Origin: Dethiosulfovibrio faecalis
Lineage (GTDB): Bacteria > Synergistota > Synergistia > Synergistales > Dethiosulfovibrionaceae
Length of the DNA: 64,000 nt
Direction: 5' to 3'
Assembly: GCF_021568795.1 (NCBI RefSeq)
Contig: NZ_JAKGUE010000001.1
Span: 1-64,000, forward strand
The translations under genes and the position numbers were made by a program. The notes beneath the pieces were generated by a model that saw only the letters and a list, made by a program, of their open reading frames with translations, did not search any database and was not told the origin of the DNA. Shown one piece after another: positions 696-5,619 of this stretch; position 1 is the first letter of the stretch; every line of letters starts with the position of its first letter.

Positions 696-2582
696 TTAGA
701 TCTCTATCTTTTGATTTCTTTTTAATATTTTTGCCCTGTAGTTTTGTTTGATTTTTTTAGGATAAAATAAAAAAAGTTTTTTTAAATCTATCTTGAATAA
801 CTTGACGCAATAACGAGCGCAATAAGCTAGCATTGCGATAATTCCTGGGAGAATGTAACTGTTTATCTTGTTTATGCAAAAAAGAATGTCTAGTATTTTT
901 TTGTAAAATGTAACTGTTGTTAAAATCAACAGTACTAAAATAGGTATAATTAGCTTTAGAATGAGACCTATAGTAGCTTCTCTTTTTGCCTCTTTTTTCT
1001 CTTGTTCTCTTATAAAATTCATCATGGCTTTGTTTTTATATTTATATGGATTTACGACTTCATCTTTTTTTAGTACTTCGTCAGTTATTAGGTCCTCTTG
1101 TCCTGCAGAAACATCATTTAAACGCTCAAGAGTTTCGTAAGTTTTTAGTAGCCCGTATGATTCTTCGGTAATCAAGCCTTTTGATTGCAGGTTTTGTGCT
1201 TGTTCGAATACTTTTTTGATGAATTTATCATCAGGTTTTGTAATAGAAGAAGCAAGGGCCAAGATTTGTTCTTGGGGAAGATGGGGTTTTTCTAGTGGTA
1301 TTTTTACCCAAGCTATGTTGATTAAGTCAAAATACGTTATTGCAGGTGGTATCGATTTTTCTGACTTTTGTTCTATGTCTATTTGATAAATTTTTGCTGC
1401 TTTTACTAGTGCATGATTTTGAGTAACGAAGATGCATTTACATTCAGATATTTTGTCTCTGTATGTGTCTTTTCTTTCTGAAAAAATGCATCTAATAGAG
1501 TTTATGTCATTTAGTAAGGCTTTTGGGTTTTTGTATTTTATAAATCTTTCAATTATTTCTTGTAATTCAGGCTCATTTATCTGGTATTTTGTATCTTTGT
1601 AACTTGGAGTTTGTACTATGCCCATGTAGTTTGATAGTGTTGTGGTTAGTTCCTTTGATTTTAAAATTAAATCAGATTTCTCTAGCTTTTGTTTTTTTGC
1701 TTCCCAGATAATACTTCCTTCAGCCTTAGGGTTATTGATATTTTTAGCGGCTGTCTCTATAGTAATTTGAGCCTCTTCGATGGAATGAGAAAAGCATTTT
1801 ATGTTGCCGTTTAATTTTTTTATTAAACTAAAAAGAGTTTTCATGGATTCTTCTTCTAATGACCCCTCTAGTCCTATTGTTTTAAAAAGCAATGGCGTAT
1901 CTACGTAAAAAGTAACATTTTTAAAGTTATTTTTTACGTTTTCCTTGTTTAGATCGTTGCAAAACATACTATTTGCAAAAATATTAGCTGTAACTAGTAA
2001 GGAAAAATATTCGAATAGTTCAATGTTGTGCAGGAGTTTATTTTTAATAAAAGAGCTTACTATTTTTATTTTTATATTCTTTTCATCTTTTACATCTGGA
2101 AGTATCGTTGTATTTGTGGAGTCTGAAATCAAACCCATGCAGGGAACTGAAAATTTTGATATGAATAGTATTAGAGCGTCAAGGGCTTCCTGTTTTGTTA
2201 GTGTTATTAGTGTGTTTGAGCTTGTTTTTGTGAACTCATGAAGTTCTGTTGTAAGTTGTTTTATTTTTATAGTGTTATTGCCTATCTCTTTTTTGAGATC
2301 GTGATCTGGGAATTGAATTAAAAAAACATATTTTTTGTTTTTTCGTTTTATTTTTTTTGATTTTATCATTCCCGAAATAGAGAGCTTTACCACTGGAGGA
2401 GGAATAAGTAGGGAGAATTTTTTATTTATTGCTTCAGAAGCTTCGTTCTCATCAAAAGGGACATTATAATCATCTATGCTATTTGTTATGAGTTCTCCTA
2501 TATATTCGTATGAATTGAGCCCCTTGTCAATTTGAGTTTTTAAAATAGCTAGACTGACAAGCGAATTATCAAGGTCATTCAT
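696..2582 (-). CDS. PIN-like nuclease candidate with C-terminal membrane helices
   Basis: The 628-residue frame starts at the ATG at 2582, behind GGAG. Upstream in-frame ATGs at 2594 and 2651 are possible, but the latter overlaps an immA remnant. Around residues 225-232 the motif FYVDTPLLF resembles the first strand and aspartate of PIN-like ribonuclease domains. Further acidic residues follow (IEEA near 269, LND near 359) and the segment FVTQNHALVKA near 385-395 resembles the PIN C-terminal strand. Two hydrophobic helices (about 538-560 and 576-594) precede a Lys-rich tail, so the protein is probably anchored in the inner membrane. The gene is far more AT-rich than everything around it, which points to recent transfer. 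It lies in a prophage accessory slot beside immA and the repressor, where phage-exclusion genes are often carried. A defence role is inference; the nuclease call is moderate. Confidence 0.6.
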   Translation of the reverse strand: MNDLDNSLVSLAILKTQIDKGLNSYEYIGELITNSIDDYNVPFDENEASEAINKKFSLLIPPPVVKLSISGMIKSKKIKRKNKKYVFLIQFPDHDLKKEIGNNTIKIKQLTTELHEFTKTSSNTLITLTKQEALDALILFISKFSVPCMGLISDSTNTTILPDVKDEKNIKIKIVSSFIKNKLLHNIELFEYFSLLVTANIFANSMFCNDLNKENVKNNFKNVTFYVDTPLLFKTIGLEGSLEEESMKTLFSLIKKLNGNIKCFSHSIEEAQITIETAAKNINNPKAEGSIIWEAKKQKLEKSDLILKSKELTTTLSNYMGIVQTPSYKDTKYQINEPELQEIIERFIKYKNPKALLNDINSIRCIFSERKDTYRDKISECKCIFVTQNHALVKAAKIYQIDIEQKSEKSIPPAITYFDLINIAWVKIPLEKPHLPQEQILALASSITKPDDKFIKKVFEQAQNLQSKGLITEESYGLLKTYETLERLNDVSAGQEDLITDEVLKKDEVVNPYKYKNKAMMNFIREQEKKEAKREATIGLILKLIIPILVLLILTTVTFYKKILDILFCINKINSYILPGIIAMLAYCARYCVKLFKIDLKKLFLFYPKKIKQNYRAKILKRNQKIEI

Positions 2583-2637: not shown

Positions 2638-2836
2638 CTATCTCCTTGCATCCTCCAGCCGTATCTGCATAGCCAGAGGGCTGACTCCGAATATCTGCGC
2701 CAGTTGCTTTGTGTCGTGCTTGTAGTGGATCGATTGAAGAGCCGTCTTGGACATAAGGAGTTCCGCCGCGAAGACGTTGGCCGCCTGTTCCGTTCTTGGC
2801 CCCCACGATTTCACAGGGGTCGATGCCTTGCCTTTT
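2638..2836 (-). pseudogene. 3' remnant of an immA/IrrE-type gene
   Basis: Read on the minus strand, this encodes a tail homologous to the intact ImmA at 4419-4880: KSWGPRTEQAANVFAAELL here against ESWLPREEQAANVFAAELL there. It continues to MQIRLEDARR and a stop at 2638-2640. There is no HExxH region and no start; the sequence begins directly after the stop codon of the gene at 2840. The last 141 bp are about 97% identical to the intact gene, while the upstream part is more diverged. It therefore comes from a related immA allele, or has been partly homogenised by recombination. Confidence 0.8.
2651..2791 (-). repeat. Direct repeat copy A (immA 3' segment, 141 bp)
   Basis: This copy aligns without gaps to 4432-4572, with four mismatches seen by eye. 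The two copies bracket the DUF4041/T5orf172 gene. Such repeats could recombine to delete that gene and restore a single immA. Confidence 0.9.
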
Positions 2837-4418: not shown

Positions 4419-4880
4419 CTACCTCCCAATTTCCTCCAGCCGTATCTGCATAGCCAGAGGGCTGACTCCGAATATCTGCGCCAGTTGCTTTGTGTCGTGC
4501 TTGTAGTGGATCGATTGAAGAGCTGTCTTGGGCATTAGGAGTTCTGCCGCGAAGACGTTGGCCGCCTGTTCCTCTCGAGGAAGCCATGATTCCGGAGAGT
4601 CCAGGGAAAAGGCGGCTGGGTGGCCGAGGACATAGTGTCCCAGTTCGTGAGCCACGGTGAAGCGGCGGCGTTCGTAGGGTAGGGCGGTGGAGACAAGGAT
4701 AATCTTTCGGTCTCCGTGGATGAAGAGGGTGCCGTCGATGTGTCTGGCTTTACTGTGGCAGATTTCGATCCCCAGCTTCCGACAGAGCTTGCTCAGCCGA
4801 ATGGGGATCATCCGTTCCATTCCGTATTTGCCTAGCAGGGTTCGGGCCATGACCCGGATCCTGGTTCCGTTGTTTGTCAT
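4419..4880 (-). CDS. immA: ImmA/IrrE-type metalloprotease
   Basis: 153 aa with the zinc protease signature VAHELGHY around residues 76-83 and the family's EEQAANVFAAELLMP block. ImmA proteins cleave CI-like repressors of integrative elements in response to DNA damage, so this is the probable inducer of the adjacent repressor at 4930-5565. It follows the repressor with a gap of about 50 bp in the same direction, the usual immR-immA order. Its last 141 bp are duplicated at 2651-2791. Confidence 0.88.
   Translation of the reverse strand: MTNNGTRIRVMARTLLGKYGMERMIPIRLSKLCRKLGIEICHSKARHIDGTLFIHGDRKIILVSTALPYERRRFTVAHELGHYVLGHPAAFSLDSPESWLPREEQAANVFAAELLMPKTALQSIHYKHDTKQLAQIFGVSPLAMQIRLEEIGR
4432..4572 (-). 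repeat. Direct repeat copy B (inside immA 3' end)
   Basis: The partner of 2651-2791, of equal length and without indels. Homology ends at the GGAGGA six codons before the immA stop, which marks a recombination breakpoint. Confidence 0.9.
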
Positions 4881-4929: not shown

Positions 4930-5565
4930 TCAGTACTCATCCGTATGGTCCTCCAGCGTGATCTTGCCCAGTGCCGCTTTGAAGAGCGTTGCCAGGAACT
5001 CCCGGTCTTCCGGGGCCAGCCTGGTGACGTTCTTGGCCACGTGGCGGAACTTCAGGACTATGTCCGGATCCTCCGCCGCCAGCATCTTCATCAGAGTTTC
5101 GAGGTCTTCCTCGCTCTGTCCCTTCTTTTTCTCCGTCTCCTGCTGTGTTTCTCCGTCCCGGGCCGAAAGGTACCTTCCGTAGGCTTTGATGAGCTTCTGC
5201 TTGAGGACGCTATCCGCCCGATCCTCATATTTTTCCATCAGCTCGAGGTCCTCCGCCGGGAGATCTATCAATGCGGCGGCCTCGTCAAGTGAGAGCCCGG
5301 TTTCCTGCCTCATAGGGGCCAGTATGCCGCTGGGAACCTGCCTATCGGCTTTCTGTGGCGATGGATCGTTGGTTTCACCCATGAAGTAACCCGTCGGAAC
5401 TCCGAGAGCTCTTGCTATAAAAGAGGCTTGGATTATGTCGGGTACAGTTAAGCCTTTCTCCCACCTTTGCACGGTAGACCTAGATGCATTGCATTTTTCT
5501 GCAAGCTCTTCTTGGGACATACCGCATTTTTGGCGCATACCTTTGATTCGTTCATTAACCTTCAC
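4930..5565 (-). CDS. CI/ImmR-like prophage repressor
   Basis: 211 aa from the GTG at 5565, placed behind GGGTGG. The longer upstream frame has no ribosome site and would cover the promoter. Residues 1-60 form an XRE helix-turn-helix (MRQKCGMSQEELAEKCNASR). A linker follows, then a C-terminal helical region with EEDLETLMKMLAAEDPDIVLKF. No Ser/Lys autoprotease domain is visible, consistent with cleavage by the ImmA encoded next to it rather than RecA-stimulated self-cleavage. It is transcribed leftward, divergent from the Cro-like gene, and its promoter contains a repressor half-site in the spacer, suggesting autoregulation. Confidence 0.85.
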   Translation of the reverse strand: MKVNERIKGMRQKCGMSQEELAEKCNASRSTVQRWEKGLTVPDIIQASFIARALGVPTGYFMGETNDPSPQKADRQVPSGILAPMRQETGLSLDEAAALIDLPAEDLELMEKYEDRADSVLKQKLIKAYGRYLSARDGETQQETEKKKGQSEEDLETLMKMLAAEDPDIVLKFRHVAKNVTRLAPEDREFLATLFKAALGKITLEDHTDEY

Positions 5566-5590
5566 GATATATCCACCCTTTCCCCATTGC

Positions 5591-5619
5591 ATTGTCGCAA
5601 ATATGATGCAACGACTCAA
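5591..5619 (-). promoter_or_regulatory. Promoter of the repressor gene (PRM-like)
   Basis: On the minus strand TTGAGT (5614-5619) and GACAAT (5591-5596) are separated by 17 bp. The spacer contains GCATCATAT, the same half-site as in the operator at 5683-5698, so repressor bound here would contact or block the promoter. Confidence 0.6.

Follow-up and report, generated by a model that had tools for sequence, protein, structure and literature searches.

A predicted membrane-anchored PIN nuclease in a prophage of Dethiosulfovibrio faecalis, a candidate single-protein anti-phage effector

The gene and its product

The stretch of DNA analysed here, referred to as the window, comprises 64,000 nucleotides of Dethiosulfovibrio faecalis (contig NZ_JAKGUE010000001.1, positions 1 to 64,000), and the subject of this work is the open reading frame (ORF) at 696-2582, the PIN gene, with its 628-amino-acid (aa) product, the PIN protein. 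This protein is predicted to be a nuclease of the PIN superfamily held at the membrane, and we consider it a candidate anti-phage effector of the prophage that encodes it. The gene is read on the minus strand from an ATG at 2582 to a stop codon at 696-698, and an in-frame alternative ATG at 2651 would give a 651-aa version. Its guanine-plus-cytosine (GC) content is 30.5% (26% at third codon positions), against 53.6 ± 2.9%, with a minimum of 42.8%, in the 153 host ORFs of at least 300 aa found in 320 kb of the same contig (z about -7.9). When this AT-rich stretch was Markov-shuffled 200 times, no open frame exceeded 199 codons. Taken together, the shuffles and the GC gap show that the PIN gene is an intact, genuine gene of foreign composition. 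The original prediction, made from the sequence alone, had reported an AT-rich ORF of 628 aa at these positions, of far lower GC content than the prophage and without naming its strand; both the ORF and the difference in composition were borne out.

The order of the parts of the protein is given in Table 1. The motif FYVDTPLLF, which holds Asp228, occupies residues 225-233, and VTQNHALV occupies residues 386-393, so that both strands first pointed out are present. An AlphaFold2 (AF2) model built on an alignment of four sequences reached a predicted template-modelling score (pTM) of 0.53, with the predicted local distance difference test (pLDDT) mostly 75-90 in the PIN core; an Escherichia coli homologue (L020), modelled separately from the same four sequences, has the same topology. 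Both models contain the central parallel sheet and flanking helices of a PIN fold. In VIA-align the best match of the PIN protein was VapC (3zvk; Z 10.7, 133 residues aligned, 3.2 Å), and the model of the homologue matched VapC at Z 11.1. VapC proteins of Rickettsia, Shigella and Salmonella, together with other PIN chains, were aligned to both models at Z 9-11 over about 130 residues at about 3-4 Å, ranking above unrelated winged-helix entries. The closest folds to the core are those of the RNases VapC and protein-only RNase P. The PIN-type reading of the original prediction thus gained support from two models. Residues of about 282-350, between Glu270 and Asp359, form a helical insertion in the core. 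A library of viral structures gave a weak PIN-like match only.

The acidic residues expected of such a nuclease are conserved: Asp228, Glu270 and Asp359 are invariant in the 11 diverged full-length members of the family, with Asn389 of the V-T-x-N motif as the fourth position and Arg370, Val386, Thr387 and Trp425 among the other invariant residues. From the predicted fold and the conserved site, the PIN protein is almost certainly a PIN nuclease.

The two C-terminal transmembrane (TM) helices and basic tail first read from the sequence were confirmed by hydropathy and charge, and the hairpin is present in every one of the 11 members. The tail of 44 residues has 13 Lys/Arg against two Asp/Glu. 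AF2 placed a helix over residues 507-569, at the stalk and TM helix 1, with low confidence, as it did the hairpin. The hairpin has positive charges on either side, in agreement with a PIN domain in the cytoplasm, and it is very likely that the protein is anchored in the membrane in this orientation. At the N-terminus the model has helices at residues 24-36, 45-56 and 62-74 and a β-hairpin at 78-81/84-87. This region matched winged-helix proteins at Z 8-9 in both models (for instance 2co5, Z 8.6 over 85 residues), and residues of about 20-95 are predicted to be a winged helix, an assignment to be read with care as such Z scores are near the level of common arrangements.

Table 1. Features of the PIN gene and of the adjoining immunity locus in the window
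Feature	Position	Strand	Basis
CDS, predicted membrane-anchored PIN-domain protein, 628 aa	696..2582	minus	ORF; full-length homologues with the same architecture
TM helix 2, residues ~566-589, followed by basic tail (699-815)	816..887	minus	Hydropathy; hairpin in all 11 members
TM helix 1, residues ~536-560, preceded by long helical stalk	903..977	minus	Hydropathy peak 2.79
Predicted PIN nuclease core, residues ~222-428	1299..1919	minus	Two AF2 models; VIA-align; PIN_3 matches in two homologues
Asn389 codon (V-T-x-N motif), fourth PIN position	1416..1418	minus	V386, T387 and N389 invariant, 11/11
Asp359 codon, third PIN catalytic position	1506..1508	minus	Invariant, 11/11
Glu270 codon, second PIN catalytic position	1773..1775	minus	Invariant, 11/11
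Asp228 codon, first PIN catalytic position, end of strand 1	1899..1901	minus	Invariant, 11/11
Predicted N-terminal winged-helix domain, residues ~20-95	2298..2525	minus	AF2; VIA-align
immA 3'-end remnant, 141 bp, directly upstream of the PIN gene	2651..2791	minus	97% identical to 4432-4572
SNIPE (PD-Lambda-1) homologue, 506 aa	2840..4360	minus	PADLOC PD-Lambda-1; Pfam DUF4041 and MUG113
ImmA-type metallopeptidase	4419..4880	minus	Peptidase_M78, E 5e-22
Prophage CI-type repressor with helix-turn-helix domain	4930..5619	minus	HTH_3, E 2e-16

Family and distribution

The PIN protein has no significant family in Pfam, PHROGs, NCBIfam or PADLOC, and in PADLOC 2023 it matches no family up to E = 1; other members gave scattered weak matches there, the best with E 0.003. 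Its weak hidden Markov model matches (GCD14, PurL and phrog_23050, all with E >0.03) were dismissed. The Pfam model PIN_3 matches two of the homologues at E about 3e-4 (best 2.7e-4). A sequence-profile search of the PDB returned no PIN chain, and its top match, a splicing factor with E 0.001, is a short helical match taken as chance.

Ten full-length homologues were collected, with 18-24% identity to the PIN protein of the window; all 11 members are 628-702 aa long and have their parts in the same order. A tblastn search of plasmids returned 11 records, which belong to Pantoea, Klebsiella, Hymenobacter, Arthrobacter, Sporosarcina and Enterococcus, and blastn with the Klebsiella gene was positive in two of 5426 E. 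coli genomes. One of these E. coli proteins (WP_096936374.1, locus L008) is identical to that of the viral contig L020, which was reached by a degenerate DNA pattern; the other is WP_204691543.1 (L009). A degenerate DNA pattern with the Asp359-Arg370-FVTxN spacing fixed found L020 again and added L021 and L022, besides one false positive (L023), and a pattern around strand 1 returned three false positives (L027-L029) and nothing else. The family is too diverged for short peptide patterns, and searches with such patterns, taken from the PIN protein or from alignments, found no relative in genomes or viral contigs. Named phage records held no homologue.

Within the phylum of the host, a protein search found the PIN gene in one of 185 genomes. 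A profile search of the same phylum added one distant relative (L010, 1288-3336), from the same order as the host, in which the V-T-x-N motif is changed to VTET; judged from its sequence, it may represent a catalytically altered branch of the family. The family is therefore sparse. It spans at least four named phyla (Pseudomonadota, Bacillota, Actinomycetota and Bacteroidota) in addition to that of the window, and its members lie mostly on mobile elements, which include P2-like prophages and viral contigs besides the plasmids.

Neighbourhoods of the homologues

Several homologues were found in defence loci, as had been proposed as a check of the original prediction. In the viral contig L021, Gabija GajA/GajB and type I HsdM/HsdS are encoded within about 12 kb of the homologue, and in L022 some 100 bp separate the homologue from the type I HsdR gene that it follows. 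A Hymenobacter plasmid (L003) carries a type III-like restriction helicase and a DNA methyltransferase, plus a TIR-domain protein, and a Sporosarcina plasmid (L005) carries a CBASS locus with SAVED, cyclase, ThiF and Mov34 genes. Two further loci are P2-like. In the E. coli P2 prophage of L009 the homologue is inserted between the tail-sheath and tail-fibre-assembly genes on the opposite strand, at what we take to be the site of the P2 conversion gene fun, and in L008/L020 it is placed between ogr-like and D-like genes of a P2-like remnant. These neighbourhoods favour a role in defence, as a strong hint and not as a test. The small genes downstream of different homologues are unrelated, and the idea of a two-gene system was therefore set aside.

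The prophage and its immA slot

The prophage around the PIN gene encodes a terminase, a portal protein, a head protease/major head protein, an antirepressor, a tape measure protein and an integrase beside a tRNA-Ser gene. Going leftwards on the minus strand, the genes follow in the order repressor, immA, SNIPE homologue, immA remnant and PIN gene. The original prediction had placed the PIN gene in an accessory slot beside immA and the repressor. The slot stands, and the repressor and ImmA genes are transcribed in the same direction as the PIN gene; the immediate adjacency does not, as the SNIPE homologue and the immA remnant intervene. These two features and the winged helix had been overlooked.

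In PADLOC, residues 6-466 of the SNIPE homologue match PD-Lambda-1 (E 1e-118), and Pfam adds DUF4041 (E 1e-8) and MUG113 (E 2e-17); the protein shows the SNIPE architecture of a hydrophobic N-terminal helix, DUF4041 and a MUG113 (GIY-YIG-like) nuclease. Its GIY-YIG motif looks intact. Among the 185 genomes of the phylum, six gave matches to this protein, and part of these matches are incomplete.

Each of the two accessory genes stands behind an immA 3' end, which suggests that the cassettes were joined by recombination there, and from its sequence the immA remnant is likely a recombination scar of cassette stacking. An extra immA fragment is also present in the congener L049, about 3.1 kb before its intact immA. 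Among congeners immA itself is conserved (82-99%) and the downstream content is variable. Behind immA there are a C5 methyltransferase and a UvrD/PD-(D/E)XK protein in L050; a DUF4917/PDC-S21 protein, a HATPase protein, a Vsr-like protein and a C5 methyltransferase in L049; a HATPase protein and a C5 methyltransferase in L051; a PD-Lambda-5_A protein in L053; and a DUF6932/PDC-M63A protein in L048, the methyltransferase and Vsr names having been assigned by reading the sequences. Given these variable contents of defence type, the slot downstream of immA is a defence and accessory hotspot in this phage group. The slots of L052 and L054 hold unnamed genes, and across L048-L054 there are products of 225, 237 and 213 aa that match nothing in Pfam or PADLOC; these unnamed genes may be unlisted defence genes. 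A different PIN gene is found at the same immunity locus in L049 (287-1510), where a PIN_8 protein of 407 aa is encoded between the repressor and the immA fragment.

The window begins at a contig end. Its first ~100 bp have nine copies in the genome, several of which lie at contig ends, and are probably the end of an insertion sequence. Further in, but still downstream of the PIN gene, the part at 108-470 shows 70-80% similarity to the sequence that follows the accessory genes in L050 and L051, and is possibly the prophage end or chromosomal flank.

Discussion

According to these data, the best overall explanation is that the PIN protein is a membrane-tethered PIN nuclease acting as a single-protein anti-phage effector of the prophage, to which we give a probability of roughly 0.6. 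Direct support exists for a nuclease-type active site within a predicted PIN fold, for the membrane anchor, for a lysogenic-conversion position, for a foreign composition and for the company of defence genes. Its parts differ in strength: a role in anti-phage defence is quite probable, RNA is somewhat favoured as the main substrate, and abortive rather than direct action is an even question.

In the mechanism that we propose, the PIN domain would be held at the cytoplasmic face of the inner membrane by the helical stalk and the two-helix hairpin, with the winged helix as the likely sensing or regulatory part. As the gene is in line with the repressor and immA, its expression in the lysogen is probable. 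The protein would remain latent, with no antitoxin involved, and would be activated when the membrane is disturbed by an incoming phage or when the phage brings in a ligand. The metal site formed by Asp228, Glu270, Asp359 and Asn389 could then cut nucleic acid, most likely RNA to judge from the closest folds, and the rival phage would be stopped, probably through a halt of translation in the infected cell.

Several points weigh against this explanation. The PIN protein itself matches no PIN model, and the fold assignment depends on AF2 models from four sequences and on structural Z scores; Foldseek gave a probability of 1.00 with an E-value of only 0.06, and all its E-values exceed 0.05. At its fourth position the active site has Asn in place of Asp. 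Specificity for RNA cannot be read from the fold, as some PIN relatives, FEN1 among them, cut DNA. No recognised defence gene is present at four of the ten homologue loci (the Pantoea, Arthrobacter, Klebsiella and Enterococcus plasmids, with about 5-8 kb viewed on each side), and the counts of defence neighbours are raw, without a background rate. Moreover, we found no experiment on any member of the family.

The main rival is a direct defence in the manner of SNIPE, in which the membrane-held PIN domain would cut phage DNA at entry, its location discriminating self from non-self, and the cell would survive. In its favour, the adjoining gene encodes a SNIPE homologue, and SNIPE is bound to the membrane and cleaves phage DNA while it is being injected. 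Nuclease and membrane anchor are combined in both proteins, and DNA nucleases such as FEN1 and Exo1 also have the PIN-like fold, though both are far down the Foldseek list. However, the closest folds are RNases, the PIN protein lacks DUF4041 and no domain is common to the two proteins. The stacking of the two genes resembles cassette capture more than partnership and, elsewhere in the phylum, SNIPE homologues occur in genomes without the PIN gene. We therefore regard DNA cutting at entry as rather unlikely. A broader form of the idea is that of a new class of location-restricted immunity, in which the membrane-held PIN nuclease would cut phage nucleic acid or fresh phage transcripts at the entry site, position alone would separate self from non-self, and SNIPE would be stacked with it as a second entry-site nuclease in a single prophage cassette, traded through recombination at the immA 3' end; this is a speculative proposal which we hold to be doubtful.

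The closeness of the fold to VapC, and the many homologues on plasmids and other mobile elements, could also point to a toxin-antitoxin or addiction module that keeps the prophage or plasmid stable, with the PIN protein as its toxin. No conserved partner accompanies the family, however: the small genes downstream of the Pantoea, Hymenobacter and E. coli homologues are unrelated and the neighbouring genes differ between loci. Their length of 628-702 aa, the winged helix and the membrane hairpin moreover set the members far apart from a VapC, and we consider such a module very improbable. Prophage-encoded membrane proteins often block entry, and the family occupies lysogenic-conversion slots, so a membrane-bound superinfection-exclusion protein was also considered, with the PIN domain serving as a binding scaffold and not as a nuclease. 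The altered VTET motif of the distant relative L010 would agree with it. Nevertheless, a scaffold would not need the four active-site positions that are invariant in 11 diverged members, and this alternative is likewise highly unlikely.

Compared with known systems, the membrane-tethered PIN effector proposed here shares with the VapC group a PIN fold over about 130 residues and the Asp/Glu/Asp plus V-T-x-N site. It differs in having 4-5 times the length, in the insertion that separates its second acidic residue from the third, and in its winged helix and membrane hairpin; in addition, no conserved small antitoxin gene, as expected of VapBC, lies next to the homologues checked. DS-3, identified with DefensePredictor in E. 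coli, is a validated single-protein PIN phage defence with essential catalytic residues, no antitoxin and a proposed auto-inhibition (PMC13092281). By description, it resembles the PIN protein in being one protein with a PIN domain and no antitoxin; its PIN domain is split between the N- and C-terminus (PMC13092281), whereas that of the PIN protein is contained in residues 222-428 of 628. By analogy, DS-3 may be taken as a precedent for a latent PIN effector without antitoxin.

SNIPE, described in 2026, is an inner-membrane nuclease that cuts phage DNA during injection (PMC13190303). SNIPE/PD-Lambda-1 (PMC13190303, PMC9519451) and the PIN protein are alike as membrane-anchored nucleases in mobile elements, but SNIPE has a GIY-YIG nuclease, DUF4041 and an N-terminal anchor in place of the PIN domain, winged helix and C-terminal hairpin, and Pfam and PADLOC detected neither DUF4041 nor GIY-YIG in the PIN protein. 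SNIPE nevertheless offers a precedent, from the same genetic slot, for a nuclease held at the membrane. The L009 homologue in E. coli is at the P2 position that carries fun, a likeness to fun(Z) in position. The P2 genes old and tin belong to a different P2 locus (PMC9122126). On its predicted fold and active site, the PIN protein is a member of the PIN superfamily that is neither VapBC nor SNIPE and has no PADLOC model; by analogy, it would act as a PIN effector of the VapC or DS-3 type on a membrane anchor in the manner of SNIPE.

The family probably represents a new type of phage defence encoded by a single gene. Membrane-located nucleases were only recently shown to act in bacterial immunity, with SNIPE in 2026, and the PIN family would add a second, unrelated type of membrane-anchored nuclease, present in at least four named phyla and in none of the four family libraries searched. 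The two E. coli homologues make the family directly testable in a laboratory strain. Finally, the immA scar suggests a route by which defence genes are collected, in which recombination at the immA 3' end would stack cassettes behind the repressor operon.
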